This document shows, piece after piece, positions 21,320 to 29,865 of a stretch of 48,899 nucleotides of DNA (positions are counted from its first letter, which is position 1; every line of letters begins with the position of its first letter). Position numbers and translations under genes: made by a program. The notes beneath the pieces are model-generated. The model worked only from the letters and a program-made list of their open reading frames with translations. It made no database searches and was not told where the DNA came from. This DNA comes from Chamaesiphon sp. 336R_metabinner_41. Lineage in GTDB: Bacteria; Cyanobacteriota; Cyanobacteriia; Cyanobacteriales; Chamaesiphonaceae. The stretch lies in the NCBI GenBank assembly GCA_025359915.1, contig JANYDE010000153.1, positions 1 to 48,899 on the forward strand. The letters run 5' to 3'.

Positions 21320-21832
21320 CTATCGATCGAAACTAAAGCGACCATCAATTTTTTCGCCACCAATTATTGCGGCGATCTTTACTTGATATTTACCTGTTGC
21401 CTTTTCGCCTAATGCGGCAGCATAATGCTTGCCACTAGCATCGTAGCTAAATGGCAGAGTTTTTTGCTTGCCATCTGGAGATTGGATATCCGCAGTCACT
21501 TTGGCATTTGGCACAGTTTCATGTTTGTCCCCTTGCAGGATATAAAAATCTAAGTGGGTACTATCGCCTTCTTTCTCTGGAACTAGCTCTAAATGATATT
21601 TGCCAGATTCTACCACCTGTCCACCTTTTCTCGGAGCCATATGCGATTTTTCCATCCCATCTCCAGTCATTGGCTTAGTTCCTGTTGCTGGAGCTGATTT
21701 CTCTGCTGAGGGCGCAGAGGTGGTACTAGCTAAATCGCTAGTTTTGCCCCCTTTGCTACAGGCTCCTAGTAGTAACAATCCAGCACCCACTAAAACAATA
21801 ATTCCTGAATTAAAAGGTCTCACTTTTTGCAC
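21320..21832 (-). CDS. Secreted lipoprotein of the metal-resistance island
   Basis: The 170-residue protein has an N-terminal hydrophobic segment and a lipobox LLGAC, with the lipidated Cys at about residue 25. A Ser/Thr/Pro/Lys-rich linker containing Met and His (GDGMEKSHM) follows. A C-terminal beta-rich domain (YHLELVPEKEGDSTHLDFYI, then VPNAKVTADIQSPDGKQKTL and GKYQVKIAAIIGGEKIDGRF) resembles the immunoglobulin-like fold of YtkA/FixH-type accessory proteins. It is the last gene of the island, 93 bases after the DUF2808 gene. It has no GATGAAA box of its own, so it may be co-transcribed. A metal-handling role is inferred from context. Confidence 0.7.
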   Translation of the reverse strand: MQKVRPFNSGIIVLVGAGLLLLGACSKGGKTSDLASTTSAPSAEKSAPATGTKPMTGDGMEKSHMAPRKGGQVVESGKYHLELVPEKEGDSTHLDFYILQGDKHETVPNAKVTADIQSPDGKQKTLPFSYDASGKHYAAALGEKATGKYQVKIAAIIGGEKIDGRFSFDR

Positions 21833-21925: not shown

Positions 21926-22402
21926 TTAATCCGATCGAGGGAAATATGCCGAGCCAAGAAAATTAGTTGTCCCGTCTGTAGTTTTACCATAAAGGTAGTA
22001 TGTAGACGATCCCATCAACATATTTCTCTGCACACCGTTCAGATCAATTTTCAATTTAGTATTGGAAGAGATTGGTCGATCAAAGTCGATTTGAAGCCGC
22101 TGTCCTTGACGAGAAATCAGGGTAGAAACAATGCGATCTCGATCTGTCACTTCAACTTTACTGGTTTGAAAATCAAAGCTTTCAGGAATGTCGATCAATA
22201 GCTGTGTTAATGCCTGTCCTCCTTGAGGCACGTGAATCTGAACCGTCTGACGAACAGTTGCCCATCGGGTGTTGGGAAACTCCAGTTGGCTATCGACATG
22301 AGGTGAAGTAGCAGTAGTCTCGTGAGCACTGGTATAGTTGCCACTATTAAATGCTATAGTTACGAGACTCCAGGTAGCGATAAACAGCAATATTTTGTTC
22401 AT
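21926..22402 (-). CDS. Secreted DUF2808-type protein
   Basis: The 158-residue protein has a signal peptide (MNKILLFIATWSLVTIAF, cleavage probably near SAHE). One compact beta-rich domain follows: FPNTRWATVRQTVQIHVPQG, LLIDIPESFDFQTSKVEV, then LKIDLNGVQRNMLMGSSTYY. This is the DUF2808 pattern common in cyanobacteria, whose function is unknown. It lies 95 bases downstream of the RND pump gene and has its own copy of the island's promoter box (22433-22477). It is therefore probably part of the same metal response, possibly in the place held by copC in the known copBAC operon. That placement is inference only. Confidence 0.75.
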   Translation of the reverse strand: MNKILLFIATWSLVTIAFNSGNYTSAHETTATSPHVDSQLEFPNTRWATVRQTVQIHVPQGGQALTQLLIDIPESFDFQTSKVEVTDRDRIVSTLISRQGQRLQIDFDRPISSNTKLKIDLNGVQRNMLMGSSTYYLYGKTTDGTTNFLGSAYFPRSD

Positions 22403-22432: not shown

Positions 22433-22477
22433 ACTATAAATCTTGATGATGAAAACCAGATGAAATATCGATTAAAA
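22433..22477 (-). promoter_or_regulatory. Putative CopR box and -10 element for the DUF2808 gene
   Basis: Three units GATGAAA (22448), GATGAAA (22459) and GATTAAA (22470) are spaced exactly 11 bases apart on the plus strand. Toward the gene, nine bases after the first unit, the coding strand reads TATAGT (22433-22438), a -10-like hexamer. The start codon is at 22402. Confidence 0.65.
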
Positions 22478-22497
22478 CTTGATTTTAAAATACCTAA

Positions 22498-25400
22498 TTA
22501 ATCTACGATTGACTCAATGATCGGATTGTGAGTTGGAACGAGTTTTTTCTTGACCATAAATCTGCCAAACAGTGAATATAACGCAGGTAAAACCAGCAAT
22601 GTTAGCGCAGTCGAAGTCACCAACCCACCCAACACCACCACCGCCAACGGCTGCAAAATCTCCTTACCCGCACCAGAGCCAATTACTAGCGGTACCATCC
22701 CCAGAGCTGAGGCTAGAGCAGTGAGCAGAATCGCCACCAACCGCTCCATCGAGCCTTCGACAATTACCTGTCTGAGCGGTAATCCTTCAGCGAGTCGATT
22801 GTTATAGTTATCGACTAGCAATAACCCATTTCTAGTAGCAACGCCAAACAGGGTAATAAAGCCCACCATCGAAGCAACAGAGATAATCCCGCCACTACTC
22901 GCAACAGCAATCACCCCACCAATCAGGGCGAGTGGGAGATTGATCATAATCATCAGTGTGGCGGGAATAGACTTGACGGCAAAATAGATCAGAATTCCGA
23001 TCGCGATTAATGAAAATGCTCCAGCTACAATTAGAGTCTGAGTGGCTTGCTCTTGGGCTTGAAATTGTCCGCCGAATTGGATGTAATAGCCGCTAGGAAG
23101 GGTGATGGTTTTGACTTTCGATCTCACATCAGCAATTACCGATCCCAAGTCTCTCCCGCTGACGTTGGCGGAGACAATAATCAGCCTTGATACGTTCTCG
23201 CGATTAATCGTACTCGGTCCACTCCCATATTCTACCTTAGCGACTTGCACCAGTGGTATTTTTTGACCGCCAGGAATATCGATGAGTAAATTACCTAATA
23301 CGTCCAAATTGTTGCGATATTTTGCTTCGAGCCAGACAACTAAATTAAATGTCTGCTGCTTTTCCAAGACTTGGGAAACAGTGCGCCCGTTGAGACTAGT
23401 CTCGATCGTTTCAGCTAATTCACCGATACTCAAACCATACCGTGCGGCGGCAGATCGATCGAATTTAATTTCCACTTGTTTGACGGGAATTTGCGGTTCG
23501 AGTTGTAAATCGACAATGCCAGAAATACCACCCATTGCGGCTTGAACTTGTTGCCCGATTTTACGAAGTTCGGGTAATTCGGGACCATATATTTTAACTG
23601 CTATCGCACTTCGCACCCCTGATAAAATTTCATCCATCCGGTGCGAGATAAAACCGCCGATATTAGTCGCAACTCCAGGTAATTTATTAAGTTCCGTTCT
23701 GAGACTTGCGATCGTTTTCTCTCGATCTTTATCGCCTTCCTCACTAATTTGGACATCCAATTCTCCCGAATTTACCCCCGCGACATCCGCATCACCTTGA
23801 GCAAATCCCGCCCGAAATTGGATCGCATCAAATCGTTTATCATCTTTGAATGCAGCCATCACAGCTAGAGCAGCTTGATTGGTAGATTCTAATGATTGTC
23901 CAGGATAAAGTGTCATTGCATTGACTAGCGATCGATCCTGAAATTCTGGTAAAAAAACCTTCCCCAATCCAGGTAAAATTACCATTGCAGCGACGAATCC
24001 AGTCAGTGATATACCCAGGATGATTTTCGGAAATTTCATCGCTAATAACAGCAATGGTTGATAAATATGACGAACCATTTTCTCGACAAAAGTTTCCGAA
24101 CTAGGTAACTTCTGATTCGCCAATAGCAACGCACAAAGTGCAGGGGTAAGCGTCAAGGCAACTAAAGTAGAAGCCAAAATCGAGAGTAAATAAGCCATCC
24201 CCATCGGTGTAAAAATTCGTCCTTCCACACCTGAAAGTACGAAAATAGGCGCAAAGACAACCGCGATAATTACCGTTGAAAATAACACACTAACTCGAAC
24301 TTCTACCGAACCATCAAATACGACTTGTAAAGGTGATTTAGGATTGTCCGCAGCCTGATTTTCTCGCAGCCTGCGATAAACATTTTCCATATCAACGATC
24401 GCATCATCGACTACAGATCCGATCGCTACTACTAATCCACCCAAAGTCATTGTATTTAAACCCTGTCCTGTCCAGTTTAGAATAATTAAGCCTAACAATA
24501 GTGATAGTGGTAAAGCACTAAGACTAATTAATACTGTCCGCCAATTCATCAGGAAAATAATCAAGATTGCCGAGACAATAATCGTCCCATCTCTGAGTGC
24601 TTCCTCGACATTATTAATCGAGGCTTCAATAAATATATTTTGGTCGAAAGTTTTAGTAAAGGTAACATCTTTAGTAAGCCCCACTTTCAACTCCACCATC
24701 GCTGCATCGACAGCTTTAACTACCGTTGGCGTATCAGCGACGGGCTGTTTAGTAACAGTCAAAATCAACGCCCGTTTACCCCGAAATAATCCATCACCCC
24801 GCCGCAGTGCTGGAGCAATTTTGACATCGGCAACTTGTTCTAATAATACTGGTGCGCCATTAATCGCTTTGATCGCAGATTTTTGGAGTTGTTCTATGGA
24901 TTCTATTCTACCAATTCCCCGCACCAACATCTCTCGATCGGGTGTAGTCAAAAAACCACCTGGAACGTTAGCATTAGAATTCTGGACAGCTTTGGTAACA
25001 TCCGCTACAGATACATTAAATGCTTTGAGTTTATCAGGATTAATTAATACCTGATATTGACGCTCATCACCACCATAAAGAAAGACATTACTCACACCAG
25101 GTACCGCTAACAGGCGATTGCGAATATCCCAATTCACCACCCGCCAGACTTCCATCATATCATTACCAGAAAAAGCATATTTCACCGTCCAACCTAACGG
25201 CGAACTAACAGGTAAAATCTCCAGTTGTCCAACACCCTTGGGCAAAATACTCTGCACTCGCTGAAGCCGCTCTGTTACAAGTTGACGAGCGCGATAAATA
25301 TCTGTTTGGGGGCTAAATACCGCCTTAACTGAAGCAATTCCCACCGCCGAAGAAGAGCGCAGGGATTCTAAACCAGGCGTACCATTAATTGCACTCTCGA

Positions 25401-25605
25401 TCGGGCGAGTAACTAAAGATTCTACTTCTTCGGGGGCTAAACCTGGCGCATCGGCTTGAATTTCCACCTGTGGCGGTGCAAAAGTCGGAAACACATCCAG
25501 CGGCATTTGTCCCAATATCCGCCAACCCCAGAGGCTAATTAGCAGCGATGCGATGACAATTAACCAACGTCGCTCGATCGACCATTTTACAATTGTATTC
25601 AGCAT
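22498..25605 (-). CDS. RND heavy-metal efflux pump, CopA/CusA/CzcA type
   Basis: This 1035-residue inner-membrane protein is the proton-driven pump of a tripartite heavy-metal exporter. It starts MLNTIVKWSIERRWLIVI and has two large periplasmic loops and twelve predicted membrane helices. Helix 4 carries VVAIGSVVDDAIVDMENVYR, the proton-relay motif of the HME-RND family. GGFISHRMDEILSGVRSAI and IYGPELPELRKIGQ are also family signatures. Metal type (monovalent copper/silver or divalent zinc/cobalt/nickel) cannot be fixed from motifs I can check by eye, but the neighbouring DUF305 protein and CopR-like regulator favour copper. It corresponds to copA of the Synechocystis copBAC operon. The upstream spacer holds a GATGAAA box. 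Confidence 0.92.
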   Translation of the reverse strand: MLNTIVKWSIERRWLIVIASLLISLWGWRILGQMPLDVFPTFAPPQVEIQADAPGLAPEEVESLVTRPIESAINGTPGLESLRSSSAVGIASVKAVFSPQTDIYRARQLVTERLQRVQSILPKGVGQLEILPVSSPLGWTVKYAFSGNDMMEVWRVVNWDIRNRLLAVPGVSNVFLYGGDERQYQVLINPDKLKAFNVSVADVTKAVQNSNANVPGGFLTTPDREMLVRGIGRIESIEQLQKSAIKAINGAPVLLEQVADVKIAPALRRGDGLFRGKRALILTVTKQPVADTPTVVKAVDAAMVELKVGLTKDVTFTKTFDQNIFIEASINNVEEALRDGTIIVSAILIIFLMNWRTVLISLSALPLSLLLGLIILNWTGQGLNTMTLGGLVVAIGSVVDDAIVDMENVYRRLRENQAADNPKSPLQVVFDGSVEVRVSVLFSTVIIAVVFAPIFVLSGVEGRIFTPMGMAYLLSILASTLVALTLTPALCALLLANQKLPSSETFVEKMVRHIYQPLLLLAMKFPKIILGISLTGFVAAMVILPGLGKVFLPEFQDRSLVNAMTLYPGQSLESTNQAALAVMAAFKDDKRFDAIQFRAGFAQGDADVAGVNSGELDVQISEEGDKDREKTIASLRTELNKLPGVATNIGGFISHRMDEILSGVRSAIAVKIYGPELPELRKIGQQVQAAMGGISGIVDLQLEPQIPVKQVEIKFDRSAAARYGLSIGELAETIETSLNGRTVSQVLEKQQTFNLVVWLEAKYRNNLDVLGNLLIDIPGGQKIPLVQVAKVEYGSGPSTINRENVSRLIIVSANVSGRDLGSVIADVRSKVKTITLPSGYYIQFGGQFQAQEQATQTLIVAGAFSLIAIGILIYFAVKSIPATLMIMINLPLALIGGVIAVASSGGIISVASMVGFITLFGVATRNGLLLVDNYNNRLAEGLPLRQVIVEGSMERLVAILLTALASALGMVPLVIGSGAGKEILQPLAVVVLGGLVTSTALTLLVLPALYSLFGRFMVKKKLVPTHNPIIESIVD

Positions 25606-25645
25606 TAGTTTACGGCAAACTTTAGCTGCCTTAGCAATGAGTTAA

Positions 25646-25680
25646 ATAATACAGAACCATGATGAAATTCAGGTGAAATT
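25646..25680 (-). promoter_or_regulatory. Putative CopR box and -10 element for the RND pump gene
   Basis: GATGAAA at 25661 and GGTGAAA at 25672 are 11 bases apart. Nine bases after the first unit, toward the gene, the coding strand has TATTAT (25646-25651). A transcript from there would have a leader of about 34 bases to the start at 25605. Confidence 0.65.
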
Positions 25681-25843
25681 TATAATCCTTGTCACCGCAA
25701 TAGTTTTACGATTCTAAACTGCCCTTTCTAGATTAAAATAACAGCACTGATTCACGAAACTTATGTCACAATTCCCCCACGATCAGGAACTGTTTTTAAG
25801 CATTTTTCTTACCGTCAGGATATAAATACAGGTAAAGAATTGA

Positions 25844-27814
25844 CTATCGATCGATCCTTACAGATTCAGATTTAGATTCCGAATGTACACGATCGACATT
25901 AGCTTGCTCTAACACTAAAATCTCGGCGGCTGGTAAATCTCGAACTTCCGCTGCTGGCTCGACAAAATCGACAATACTAGTGGTGACTTGATTACTTCTA
26001 CGCCCCAACCAATAAGCACCACCGCCCAGAATACCAACGGCTGGAATTGAGCACCAGATTAAGTAAGGTGGTATTTGACTGACAGGTGTTTGACTAGCAA
26101 CCGCAGGCTTGATATCTCCATGTGTACTGGCTGGCTGCTTTTTCAGGGATTGAGCGTAGAGTTGGGGTGCGCGTTGACTGACGACTAAATCGCCTGAAAA
26201 TAATCCGGTTTTGACTTCGACTAAATCGCCGACGGTTTGTCCGAGAGTGATGGTAATGGGTTGATAGCTGTCGCCACTTTGGACATAGACTAGCTGCTCT
26301 TTTTCGTTCTCTACTACTGCGCTGGCGGGAATTACGACTACGGGAGAGGTGATTTGACTGGTGGCTAGTTGGATTTGGGCGAAGGTTCCGGCTTTGAGCA
26401 ATCCTTCGCGGTTGTCTAAGATTGCTTGGACGGGGACGATACGGCTCTGAGGGTCTACTAATGTGCCGATCCGAGATATTTGACCTGAGAAGGATTTGGG
26501 GAGGTTTCCAGGCACTTTTACGGCAACTCGCTGACCAATTTTGATTCGTGCTAAGTCGCGTTCGTAGATATTGGCGGTGACTAATACTTGGCGATCGTCG
26601 ATGAGCGTCATTAATTTAGCTCCCGCGTCGGCAACGGATTGTCCGATCGTAATTTCTTTATCTGTGATCGTACCATCGATCGGGGCGGTAATAGTGACTA
26701 TTCCTTCGGCATTGGCGCGATTGCCTAGTTGTCCTAGTCGCCCTTGATAATTGGCATCGCTTAGTTTGAGACGGGTTGTGGCGGCGGTGACGGCGGCGTG
26801 AGATTTTTGGACTTGGGCGTTGGCTTCGACTACAGATTTTTGGTTGGTGGCTTTGGCTAATTGTCCGGTGGCTTCGGCTACCTGTTTTTCGGCATCCCGC
26901 AATTCGCGTAGGGGTAAGTCAGTTTCGGCTTTGCGGAGTTCGGTTTCGGCTTGCAATACTCCTGGTTGGCTTTGGGCTTTGATTAACTGGGTGCGTGCTT
27001 CGGCAAGTTTTGCCTGAGATTCTAAGGCTTGACGGTGAGAAACTGCGCCGCTATTGGCTAATTCGAGATCTTTTTGATACCGCTCTTGGGCTAATTGTAA
27101 TTCGGTTTGACTCGATCGAATCTCGGCAGTGGCGATTTGTTTTTGCTGTTGGTAGCTATTTTTGGCGGCGCGAATTAATGAGCCATTTTTGACGAGTTGT
27201 TGCTCTCGCGCTAGTCTAGATTTCGCTGCGGTTAATTGACTTCGCGCCTGATTTGTTTCGGCGGTGGCGATTTCGACGATCTTACCATAGCTCTCTTGGG
27301 CGAGAGTCCGATCGGTTTGAGCCTGTTGGATTAGAGCGAGTGCTTCGGCGCGCTTTTCCAGGGAATTTACCCGCAGTTCATTTAATTCGGGGCTAGACAT
27401 CCGCGCTAGTATTTGCCCTGCTTTTACTCTCGCTCCAGGTTGGACTAAAAGCTGAATCAGCTTACCCTTAATTGGGGCGGTAACTTCGACTTTTTTACTC
27501 GGTAATAATTCGATTTGCCCAGTCGCCGCAATTTCGACATTCAAACTTTGTTTTTTCGCCGCAATTACTTGCACGCCAATTTGTTTCCCTGTGGCGGAGT
27601 CAATCTGGACATTTTGATTTGTCGCACCATCTTGATGCGAAAATTCATTTCCATGTCCAGCATGAGCGGATGCTAACGTAGATAATATTAGAACCGATAG
27701 CGGTAATAATATCCAGCTTAAGTATTGAACAGATATTGCCGCACCGATCGATCGATCTAGATCCCTGGCAAGATATGGTGGTGAAACAGTGCGATATTTT
27801 GGATCTATAATCAT
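25844..27814 (-). CDS. RND efflux periplasmic adaptor, CopB/CusB type
   Basis: This membrane-fusion protein links the RND pump to an outer-membrane channel. It is long for the family (656 residues). It has a hydrophobic N-terminal segment (LSWILLPLSVLILSTLASA) and a short His-rich stretch (HAGHGNEFSHQDG) that could bind metal. A barrel-sandwich lipoyl half (VEVTAPIKGKLIQLLVQPGA) is followed by an unusually long alpha-helical hairpin (about residues 120-350, rich in Ala/Gln/Glu). The second lipoyl half (ADAGAKLMTLIDDRQVLVTA) and beta-barrel domains come next, with a second membrane helix near PYLIWCSIPAVGILGGGAYWL and a cytoplasmic tail. The C-terminal membrane anchor is uncommon in CusB-type adaptors. 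It is the gene upstream of the pump. Confidence 0.9.
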   Translation of the reverse strand: MIIDPKYRTVSPPYLARDLDRSIGAAISVQYLSWILLPLSVLILSTLASAHAGHGNEFSHQDGATNQNVQIDSATGKQIGVQVIAAKKQSLNVEIAATGQIELLPSKKVEVTAPIKGKLIQLLVQPGARVKAGQILARMSSPELNELRVNSLEKRAEALALIQQAQTDRTLAQESYGKIVEIATAETNQARSQLTAAKSRLAREQQLVKNGSLIRAAKNSYQQQKQIATAEIRSSQTELQLAQERYQKDLELANSGAVSHRQALESQAKLAEARTQLIKAQSQPGVLQAETELRKAETDLPLRELRDAEKQVAEATGQLAKATNQKSVVEANAQVQKSHAAVTAATTRLKLSDANYQGRLGQLGNRANAEGIVTITAPIDGTITDKEITIGQSVADAGAKLMTLIDDRQVLVTANIYERDLARIKIGQRVAVKVPGNLPKSFSGQISRIGTLVDPQSRIVPVQAILDNREGLLKAGTFAQIQLATSQITSPVVVIPASAVVENEKEQLVYVQSGDSYQPITITLGQTVGDLVEVKTGLFSGDLVVSQRAPQLYAQSLKKQPASTHGDIKPAVASQTPVSQIPPYLIWCSIPAVGILGGGAYWLGRRSNQVTTSIVDFVEPAAEVRDLPAAEILVLEQANVDRVHSESKSESVRIDR

Positions 27815-27848
27815 AGCTGCCAGTTAACTAAGTCCTTATATTATTCCC

Positions 27849-27893
27849 AGTCTGGCAGTCAGAGATGAAAACTAGATGAAATTCGGATAAAAT
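27849..27893 (-). promoter_or_regulatory. Putative CopR box for the adaptor gene
   Basis: Units GATGAAA (27864), GATGAAA (27875) and GATAAAA (27886) repeat every 11 bases. Nine bases after the first unit, the coding strand reads CAGACT (27849-27854), a weak -10 match. The adaptor starts at 27814. Confidence 0.6.
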
Positions 27894-27920
27894 TTATCTC
27901 TATATATGGGTGTAAAATTT

Positions 27921-27954
27921 AGGGTAGGGGCAATTCATGAATTGCCCCTACCCT
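27921..27954. repeat. 34-base perfect palindrome, dispersed repeat copy 1
   Basis: Both strands read identically over the half-site AGGGTAGGGGCAATTCA. The core GTAGGGGCAATTCATGAATT, completed by GCCCCTAC, occurs again at 38277-38308, so this is a mobile or amplified palindromic element. It sits between the copM-like and copB-like genes. Confidence 0.85.
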
Positions 27955-28018
27955 GAACTCCAGGACAATCTCTGAACTTAAATCATCCTTTAATTTGACG
28001 TTGCTGAATTTTTTACAA

Positions 28019-28687
28019 TTATTTAGCCACAGCCCATTCTTTCTGCCACTTAGTCATCATATCGATTTCTACCTGTTGAGATTTAATGATATTCTGAGCG
28101 AATTTCTTCATCTGTGGGCGTTTGGATTTGAGTAATAAATCCTGAGCCATTGTCACCGCACCTTGATGATGGGGAATCATACTATCGAGAAATCTGACAT
28201 CAAATCCAGCATCTGCTTTACCTAATGACATCCTCATCATCATTGACTGTTTATGGGCTGGTGTCATTGCCATTTCATGATTCATTTCAGCGTGCCACAT
28301 GATGGGTGTTGCGGATGCTTTTGGATACCATTGTTTGCGCCACAGTTTCATTTGGGCGATGTCTTTTTTCTGATCTATGAGAATACCTTGAGCTAGCTTA
28401 ATTAGTTCTGGACGTTTGGACTTTTGCAATACTTCCTGAGCCATTACCAAGGCACCTTGATGATGGGGAATCATACTATCGAGAAACCGCAGATCGTAGT
28501 TAGCATTAGCAGGCCCGACATCCATGCTATGATTCATCATGCCCCCATGATTCATCCCTTCATGATTTTGCGCGAGGTTTGAATTTTGATGATGTTGAGT
28601 TGTTAAATTAGCTATAGCTAAAGAGCTAATACCGAGAGTTCCCACTATCATAGCGATCGGGGTAAGTAATCGAACTTTAGGATGCAT
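28019..28687 (-). CDS. copM: Periplasmic DUF305 protein with two metal-binding units (CopM-like)
   Basis: The 222-residue protein has a signal peptide (LLTPIAMIVGTLGISSLAIA) and two tandem DUF305 units. Each carries FLDSMIPHHQGA, near residues 68 and 163, and a helix ending KSKRP-x-x-KK/KL-AQ. Between signal and first unit is a Met/His stretch (HEGMNHGGMMNHSMDVG), and between units a second one (MNHEMAMTPAHKQSMMMRMS). This agrees with CopM, the periplasmic copper-binding protein of Synechocystis that is encoded next to copRS. Its gene is divergent from the response regulator and shares a promoter region with it. The copper specificity is inferred from homology and from the residue composition. 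Confidence 0.82.
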   Translation of the reverse strand: MHPKVRLLTPIAMIVGTLGISSLAIANLTTQHHQNSNLAQNHEGMNHGGMMNHSMDVGPANANYDLRFLDSMIPHHQGALVMAQEVLQKSKRPELIKLAQGILIDQKKDIAQMKLWRKQWYPKASATPIMWHAEMNHEMAMTPAHKQSMMMRMSLGKADAGFDVRFLDSMIPHHQGAVTMAQDLLLKSKRPQMKKFAQNIIKSQQVEIDMMTKWQKEWAVAK

Positions 28688-28717
28688 AATATTATTGCTA
28701 ATTTTTAGATTATCTCT

Positions 28718-28752
28718 ATCTTAGTTAAATGAGATGAAATTAGGATGAAATT
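28718..28752 (-). promoter_or_regulatory. Putative CopR box and -10 element for copM
   Basis: GATGAAAT at 28733 and 28744 are 11 bases apart. Nine bases after the first unit, on the coding strand, is TAAGAT (28718-28723). The leader to the ATG at 28687 would be about 24 bases. Confidence 0.68.
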
Positions 28753-28766
28753 AGTTCCGTTGAAAG

Positions 28767-28798
28767 TTCATGTCAATTTCATCTAGGCAAGGGATGAT
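28767..28798 (+). promoter_or_regulatory. Inverted, weaker CopR box facing copR
   Basis: On the plus strand TTCAT at 28767 and TTCAT at 28778 (in TTTCATC) are 11 bases apart, that is GATGAA-type units on the minus strand. Nine bases later comes GATGAT (28793-28798), a weak -10 match. The predicted start would fall at about the ATG, so the transcript would be nearly leaderless; the AAGGGATG near 28790 would then not act as a ribosome site. This makes the call uncertain. Confidence 0.4.
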
Positions 28799-28803
28799 AA
28801 TTA

Positions 28804-29676
28804 ATGATGAAAATTTTACTGATCGAAGACGAACCAGATTTAGGTAGTATTATCCAAAAAAGTCTCTCGCATCATCAATATGTTGTAGATTGGGCGATGG
28901 ATGGTAAAGCCGGATGGGAATATTTGACTGTCGAACGAGATATGTATTCCCTAGCCATTATTGATTGGATGTTGCCAAAAATATCTGGGGTCGAACTTTG
29001 CCAAAGATTACGTGCAGAAAAGCACAGTTTACCCATCTTAATGTTGACCGCACGAGATCGAATGGAGGATAAAATTACCGGATTGGATGCTGGCGCGGAT
29101 GACTATCTCGTCAAACCATTTGGGATGGAAGAATTACTCGCCAGACTTCGCGCTCTTCACCGTCGCGCTCCGACATTTCAAGCAGAGCGATTGCAAGTAG
29201 GAAATCTGCGATTGGACTATGGTAATAATGCTGTTACTATTATTAGTTCAGCAGCAATAGAACAATCTGTAACTTTGACGGCGAAAGAGTTTCAACTATT
29301 AGAATATCTGATGCAACATCCAGATCTAACGCTTACCCACGAACAGATTCGCAATCGAATTTGGGCATTTGATTCTGAGTCAGCAAGTAATGTTGTTGCG
29401 GCTCAAATTCGATTGTTGCGGAAGAAGTTAGCTGAATTCGATCGCGATGATGCAATCGAAACCATCCGTGGATTTGGTTATAGATTAAATGCAGCCAATT
29501 TATACTCCAAAAGTAGCTCGTCTTTACTTCCCTTCACTCTTCATCCAACTGTGCAAAATCTAGTGTGGGAAAACGTTACAGGGGTGCTTGTCACCCCTTC
29601 AGGTCCCTTCCCCTGTATACACAAGTCTGTTGGAGATGATGCGCAGATCGCCACCCCACCCCAGCCATCCCCTTAA
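28804..29676 (+). CDS. copR: OmpR/PhoB-family response regulator (CopR-like) with abnormal C-terminus
   Basis: The receiver domain (residues 1-120) has the acidic pair in IEDEPD, the phospho-acceptor Asp in IIDWMLPKISG, the Thr in MLTARD and the Lys in YLVKPFGMEEL. The winged-helix DNA-binding domain runs from about residue 135 to FGYRLNA near residue 233. It is divergent from copM and probably controls the GATGAAA boxes. Odd: a further 55-odd residues after FGYRLNA (LHPTVQNLVWENVTG on to TPPQPSP) are unlike any regulator and are encoded by a hairpin and a dispersed repeat. No sensor kinase gene follows, although copS normally overlaps or follows copR. ATG 28804 or 28807 may be the start. Confidence 0.85.
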   Translation: MMKILLIEDEPDLGSIIQKSLSHHQYVVDWAMDGKAGWEYLTVERDMYSLAIIDWMLPKISGVELCQRLRAEKHSLPILMLTARDRMEDKITGLDAGADDYLVKPFGMEELLARLRALHRRAPTFQAERLQVGNLRLDYGNNAVTIISSAAIEQSVTLTAKEFQLLEYLMQHPDLTLTHEQIRNRIWAFDSESASNVVAAQIRLLRKKLAEFDRDDAIETIRGFGYRLNAANLYSKSSSSLLPFTLHPTVQNLVWENVTGVLVTPSGPFPCIHKSVGDDAQIATPPQPSP

Positions 29677-29697
29677 AAATGGGAGGGAGTAAAGTCC
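29580..29697. repeat. Dispersed repeat forming the end of the regulator gene
   Basis: AGGGGTG-CTTGT-CACCCCT (29580-29598) is a 7-bp stem hairpin. From about 29650 to 29697 the sequence (CACCCCAGCCATCCCC then TTAAAAATGGGAGGGAGTAAAG) matches, in reverse orientation, one arm of the element at 15361-15405. Together they code for the last part of the response-regulator frame and its stop codon. Confidence 0.65.
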
Positions 29698-29865
29698 ACC
29701 TTTAAAAGAAGTCTAGCCGACACGGTAGCTAACAACACCAGGGATGTTGCCTCTGGTGCAAGATGTAAATTTGTATACTTTCCGTAACGATTGTCGGCAG
29801 TCGATCGCCTGAATATGATAGGTTTCTAGATAGTTAAATCAATTTAACCTTAATTAAAATTTCAC

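Follow-up and report, generated by a model that had tools for sequence, protein, structure and literature searches.

A contig of 48,899 nucleotides (nt) from the cyanobacterium Chamaesiphon sp. 336R_metabinner_41 (JANYDE010000153.1, C67 among the 169 contigs of a 4.23-Mb genome), analysed as a whole and called the window here, carries a copper-type resistance island whose genes are preceded by a shared direct-repeat box. The boxes are putative binding sites of a response regulator of the CopR/RppA type, encoded at 28804, which would activate copM, copB, copA, a DUF2808 gene with a copC homologue, and probably copR itself; we give this reading a probability of roughly 0.85. The motif and this kind of regulon are already known. 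New are a candidate promoter rule, DUF2808 as a recurrent putative member, and a kinase gene unlinked to the regulator gene.

The box and its promoters

Read on the coding strand, the box is TTTCATC-N4-TTTCATC, with 14 fixed bases. The initial annotation had placed GATGAAA units, repeated every 11 bases, before four minus-strand starts, and all are present where it put them, with the qualification that the pair at copA has one mismatch. The copM box (28733-28750, minus strand) consists of two perfect units (28733/28744) and is followed by the -10 hexamer TAAGAT at 28718-28723. Two perfect units are likewise found in the copB box (27864-27892, minus strand; units 27864/27875), where the hexamer CAGACT (27849-27854) has TG before it, and in the DUF2808 box (22448-22476, minus strand; units 22448/22459; TATAGT at 22433-22438). 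At copA the box (25661-25678, minus strand) is a pair at 25661/25672 with the one mismatch (GGTGAAA), and TATTAT lies at 25646-25651. The three units claimed at 27864 and 22448 hold only loosely, as the third has one mismatch in each case (GATAAAA at 27886, GATTAAA at 22470). Three units were rejected as a general feature; 3 of the 90 plasmid boxes and 4 of the 29 Chamaesiphon boxes have a third unit 11 base pairs (bp) further upstream. The start codon is separated from the nearest unit by 45 nt at DUF2808, 55 at copA, 49 at copB and 45 at copM, in line with the 46-56 bases proposed for the first unit, and the four hexamers were found as described, 9 nt past the 7-base unit.

A fifth, degenerate box faces copR and had been overlooked. 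It lies on the plus strand at 28766-28783, divergent from the copM box, and departs from the 14 fixed bases at two positions; GATGAT (28793-28798) stands at the same -10 offset. On this basis copR is probably a fifth member of the regulon, and its transcript is possibly leaderless, as transcription would start at or near the start codon. Four Chamaesiphon genomes (G002, G003, G005, G006) contribute six copM-copR loci, mostly chosen because boxes were present, in which both genes have a box facing them.

Could such an arrangement arise by chance? The window has three exact boxes where its shuffles give 0.00, and six with up to one mismatch where they give 0.09, which bears out the view that the fourfold geometry is unlikely to be accidental. 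At up to three mismatches the count is at chance level (12 against 10.57 expected). A genome-wide search for the motif had been suggested; exact copies prove to be confined to the island, occurring at three places in the genome, all three upstream of island genes. With up to one mismatch there are 8 places, 6 of them in the island, and with up to two there are 56, against 57 for the reversed pattern, which is noise. Outside the box and the -10 hexamer the five promoter flanks are only 20-48% alike, so the boxes are not recent copies of one segment. On the shuffle counts and the unlike flanks, chance and duplication were rejected as the origin of the boxes.

The geometry recurs elsewhere. In the window and 20 plasmid loci of other cyanobacteria, half-sites with a period of 11 occur 145 times, and the reversed unit has that period 3 times; periods of 7-10 and 12-15 are found at 3 to 30 places. 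An alignment of 110 non-redundant exact boxes, drawn from plasmid and genome loci, brings out a further conserved stretch, in which offsets 24-25 are T in 84% and G in 72% of boxes, offset 28 is A in 91% and offset 32 is T in 90%. A28 and T32 stand together in 84% of the 90 non-redundant plasmid boxes (next best offset 21%), so that the nine-base spacing to the -10 hexamer recurs in sequences outside the window. They do so in 83% of the 29 Chamaesiphon boxes, which come mostly from stretches chosen for boxes (next offset 34%), and in all five window promoters. An extended -10 (TG) was rejected as a general feature, being present in only 28% of the Chamaesiphon boxes. Two 11-bp half-sites with a -10 hexamer at fixed offset would constitute a promoter rule across genera. 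The named hexamers form part of no sigma-70 consensus -35/-10 pair in the window, as would be expected if these promoters depend on an activator at -35; 17 such pairs were found, against a shuffle mean of 16.7. One pair between the copM hexamer and its start codon (28718-28691) was rejected, as it ends 3 nt before the start codon.

The regulator and its link to the box

The gene divergent from copM was initially taken to encode a CopR-like regulator, and its product indeed belongs to the RppA/CopR family. copR (28804-29676, plus strand) matches NF041734, the RppA family, over residues 2-229 with 361.9 bits against a cut-off of 250, leaving a C-terminal tail of about 61 residues unmatched; CopR of the Synechocystis plasmid pSYSX scores 384.1 bits at the same cut-off. 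The available text of a Synechocystis study names TTCATN4-5TTCAT as a putative site for CopR and places it at the cop promoters, in front of mntC and in the region separating nrsRS from nrsBACD (PMC4182526), and a 2014 review, as far as its available text goes, has CopR binding the copMRS and copBAC promoters directly (PMC4284471). In the window this published box is exact at copM, copB and DUF2808, and by the 14-base pattern there is one mismatch at copA and two at copR. The window box is thus the published putative CopR site, and the motif as such is not new.

The boxes also follow the regulator from genome to genome. Forty genomes with a strong RppA/CopR homologue (350 bits or more) contain 279 boxes, while the control pattern occurs 94 times in them; in 20 genomes lacking one the counts are 51 and 46. 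The mean box excess is 4.62 with the strong homologue and 0.25 without it (one-sided Mann-Whitney p = 5.8e-5), where the p value ignores kinship among the 60 related genomes and the score split was set after the gap was seen. The proposal that the repeat is a PhoB/OmpR-family site replacing the -35 element is the best reading, given the regulator family, the published site, the fixed -10 and this tracking of box and regulator over the 60 genomes. The promoters resemble pho-box promoters of the PhoB/OmpR type, in which two direct half-sites stand 11 bp apart at -35 and at a constant spacing from the -10, although the half-site sequence there is not TTTCAT.

The relative G006 (contigs C1 and C3) has 29 exact boxes and encodes four strong homologues of CopR; the genome of the window has one CopR and three boxes. 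Boxes also precede long, porin-sized genes in two other loci (L043, 18812-19038; L055, 17271, annotated as an iron uptake porin), and outer-membrane porins may belong to the regulon.

How would these promoters work? The boxes, their fixed spacing and conservation, their co-occurrence with the regulator and the unlinked kinase gene are read in the sequence; what we infer is that CopR is phosphorylated, binds and activates, that copper is the signal, and that the DUF2808 protein is exported and handles copper. A phosphorylated CopR dimer would bind head-to-tail at the -35 position, where both 11-bp half-sites lie on the same face of the DNA, and would recruit RNA polymerase to the -10 hexamer at its fixed offset. 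copM, copB, copA and DUF2808(-copC) would be switched on from separate promoters, with copR probably switched on divergently by itself. The inducer would most likely be copper, sensed by the CopS kinase encoded elsewhere in the genome.

Besides the kinship of the genomes and the late score split, several points weigh against regulation of the island by CopR in response to copper. In the available text of the Synechocystis study, mntC and the nrs genes carry the motif and are unchanged with CopR (PMC4182526), so the box alone is not sufficient for a CopR-dependent copper response. A 2026 review, in the text available, gives a different motif for Synechocystis RppA (PMC13421787). The copR box has its two mismatches and leaves almost no leader. 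TG precedes the -10 in 73% of the plasmid boxes and in only one of the five window promoters. The NCBI RppA model cannot tell CopR and the nickel regulator NrsR apart, and the metal is not decided by the pump either.

Which metal, and which regulator?

The last of these points bears on the most serious rival, which keeps the box and the regulator type but replaces copper as the signal by a different metal (nickel, as for NrsR/RppA, or manganese) or by a broader stress; the copper label would then be wrong. The motif occurs at the Synechocystis nrs and mntC promoters as well; among solved structures the window pump scores higher with the zinc pump ZneA (484.8 bits) than with CusA (449.8 bits); and on a plasmid of Leptolyngbya sp. 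NIES-3755 (L057, 9887-15786) DUF2808, an RppA-like regulator and a kinase stand directly before a manganese-type ABC transporter, where the RppA-like pair may serve another metal. Copper is nevertheless favoured by a CopM-family protein above its cut-off together with a copC homologue, and by a pump that shares 62% identity with Synechocystis CopA and differs little from it in the signature of transmembrane segment 4 (TM4), and we regard a different signal as fairly unlikely.

A change of regulator instead of signal is a good deal less probable. The genome encodes further OmpR-family response regulators, one of them at the RppA cut-off (C16, 249.6-250.7 bits), and any of these might bind the boxes in place of the neighbouring CopR; yet the genome has boxes only around copR, and the box excess follows strong RppA/CopR homologues rather than the weaker relatives also present in other genomes. 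Least credible of all, with a probability next to nothing, is that the repeats are accidental or non-regulatory: looser versions of the pattern do occur at chance frequency, whereas exact and one-mismatch counts lie far above those of shuffles, the flanks are unrelated, the -10 is fixed across genera and one gene family, DUF2808, is specifically tied to the box.

The divergent DUF2808 family as a probable regulon member

That the DUF2808 protein, unassigned in the initial annotation, shares the regulon is strongly supported by comparison of loci. Its gene (21926-22402, minus strand) encodes a divergent member of the family (PF10989, 30.7 bits at a gathering cut-off of 25.3; the genome's canonical member scores 124), with an N-terminal signal-like stretch and a predicted Ig-like beta sandwich. 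In three overlapping sets the box is found near the start of 37/38, 33/44 and 60/71 divergent DUF2808 genes, as against 18/191, 2/27 and 19/142 of the other open reading frames (ORFs) in the same loci. None of 27 canonical, high-scoring DUF2808 genes has it (30 loci were taken, three of which gave no ORF), and the exact box is absent throughout the 99,955 bases of those 30 loci. A link of the box to every DUF2808 gene is rejected by this 0/27. The genome's second DUF2808 gene (C125) has no box match on its contig.

The DUF2808 genes were chosen by protein similarity and not by the box; paralogues and close relatives are numerous among them, and the profile that called them was built partly from the same loci. 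Gene starts are those of the longest ORF, and the box was searched from -300 to +80. The second set includes the window gene and has Chamaesiphon contigs in common with the third (e.g. G002:C282, which is L165). The counts take in 19 of 21 records, the other two, H46 and H47, being apparently almost identical to H45; L174, L175 and L183, loci seen before, were dropped. The 23 divergent genes with no box (1, 11 and 11 over the three sets) are partly more distant relatives. Other genes of the first set are boxed less often than DUF2808: 10/16 for RppA, 5/8 for copB-like, 3/6 for copM-like, 6/20 for copA-like and 0/8 for copC-like genes, the copA-like and copC-like genes often standing downstream of other genes.

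What might the protein do? The structural model is an eight-stranded beta sandwich, with a block-mean predicted local distance difference test (pLDDT) score of at least 84 from residue 51 on. On re-alignment with VIA-align, three entries of the copper-binding protein YcnI come out on top (Z 11.8-11.9, 2.1 A over 103-104 residues; the next has Z 10.7 at 3.4 A), so that YcnI/DUF1775 gives the best re-aligned match to the overall fold; by Foldseek E-value the pilin EbpB is first and YcnI fourth. The other fold matches are mostly Ig-like domains of adhesins and pilins, with some other proteins, and a sequence search of solved structures gave a single match, at E 0.29. Identity to YcnI is only 12-13% and its copper ligands are not evident in DUF2808. 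The copper brace of YcnI is formed by the N-terminal His27, Glu50 and Trp137, according to the available text of PMC8424229. For the His of this brace, the window protein alone has His at alignment column 27 (1/43), and another His (35) is present in 33/43. The Pfam DUF1775 profile has no match at E up to 5 in five DUF2808 proteins, and DUF2808 is therefore not filed as a YcnI/DUF1775 member. As Ig-like folds are common and the YcnI ligands are not evident, copper binding by DUF2808 is put forward only as a hypothesis.

A literature search brought up no link between DUF2808 and copper in the text available. One DUF2808 protein, All7597 of Anabaena sp. PCC 7120, was found in an exoproteome study, and its gene number is close to that of all7594, a copper-induced CopM homologue; the passages on All7597 do not mention regulation by CopR. 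Tentatively, and at somewhat short of even odds, the divergent DUF2808 proteins could be cyanobacterial exported YcnI-like binders of copper (or another metal), often in tandem, that form the most constant member of CopR/RppA regulons, are tied to the box more tightly than pump or CopM, and represent an unrecognised arm of metal defence.

Layout of the island and the unlinked kinase gene

The minus-strand cluster consists of copM, copB, copA, DUF2808 and the copC homologue, with copR divergent on the plus strand. copM (28019-28687, minus strand) encodes a CopM family metallochaperone of the DUF305 family (NF049983, 122 bits, cut-off 90), copB (25844-27814, minus strand) an efflux periplasmic adaptor (TIGR01730, 150.6 bits, cut-off 94.9), and copA (22498-25605, minus strand) a CusA/CzcA-family heavy-metal RND pump. 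In G006 a locus (L099, 9926-16472) has two RND pumps in tandem, and the window copA matches the second type only (92% against 57% identity). The copC homologue (21320-21832, minus strand), outside the coordinates of the initial annotation, is lipoprotein-like and shares 36% identity with the protein that occupies the copC position on pSYSX. It begins 93 nt after DUF2808; a search for a box of its own found none, and it probably shares a transcript with DUF2808.

The closest known system is CopRS-copM-copBAC of Synechocystis sp. PCC 6803, with a CopR 57.5% identical, homologues of copM, copB, copA and copC, and the same box. The pSYSX copM and copB boxes have the 11-bp period, and the -10 position of pSYSX copM reads CAGACT, which is the hexamer of the window copB. 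Synechocystis, however, has two colinear units, copM-copR-copS and copB-copA-copC, whereas in the window copM and copR are divergent, copS is unlinked, and copB, copA and the added DUF2808 gene each have their own box. The annotation of the pSYSX stretch compared contains no DUF2808 gene.

Where is the kinase? A single RppB/CopS homologue above the family cut-off was found in the genome (the best match was followed up), and it is not beside copR. It lies on contig C104 (2951-4300, L097; NF041735, 535.2 bits, cut-off 400), is flanked by what we take from their sequences to be EVE-type and TPR-type genes, and has no box within 9 kb around it. It is 83% identical to a copS of G002 that adjoins an interrupted copR; in that relative (L105, G002:C140, 5820-8162) copR is split into two ORFs about 1.5 kb apart. 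Among 15 copS loci scanned in relatives (L145-L159), eight, in six genomes (G001, G002, G003, G005, G006, G007), have copS beside an intact copR, one (G002) beside the interrupted copR, two are more distant copR-copS pairs and two are cut by contig ends. The other two (G003, G006) have no copR in view, so that solitary copS exists elsewhere too. In relatives, none of seven loci around the EVE-type gene has copS within the 229 to 1,500 nt upstream in view. Directly downstream of the window copR, where relatives have copS, is a dispersed repeat (29611-29708) with at least 49 other matches, most on that stretch (40 of 116 candidates were scored). The CopR frame runs into it, so that it forms part of the extra C-terminal tail, and copS was likely lost from this site by rearrangement.

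Significance

If CopR acts at these boxes, a motif described in one species would become a promoter rule with which the sequence alone would reveal CopR/RppA regulons throughout the cyanobacteria. For the uncharacterised DUF2808 family there would then be a regulator and a probable signal, together with a biochemical role open to test. The recurrence of the box in relatives would tie this family of exported proteins to the metal-stress response.

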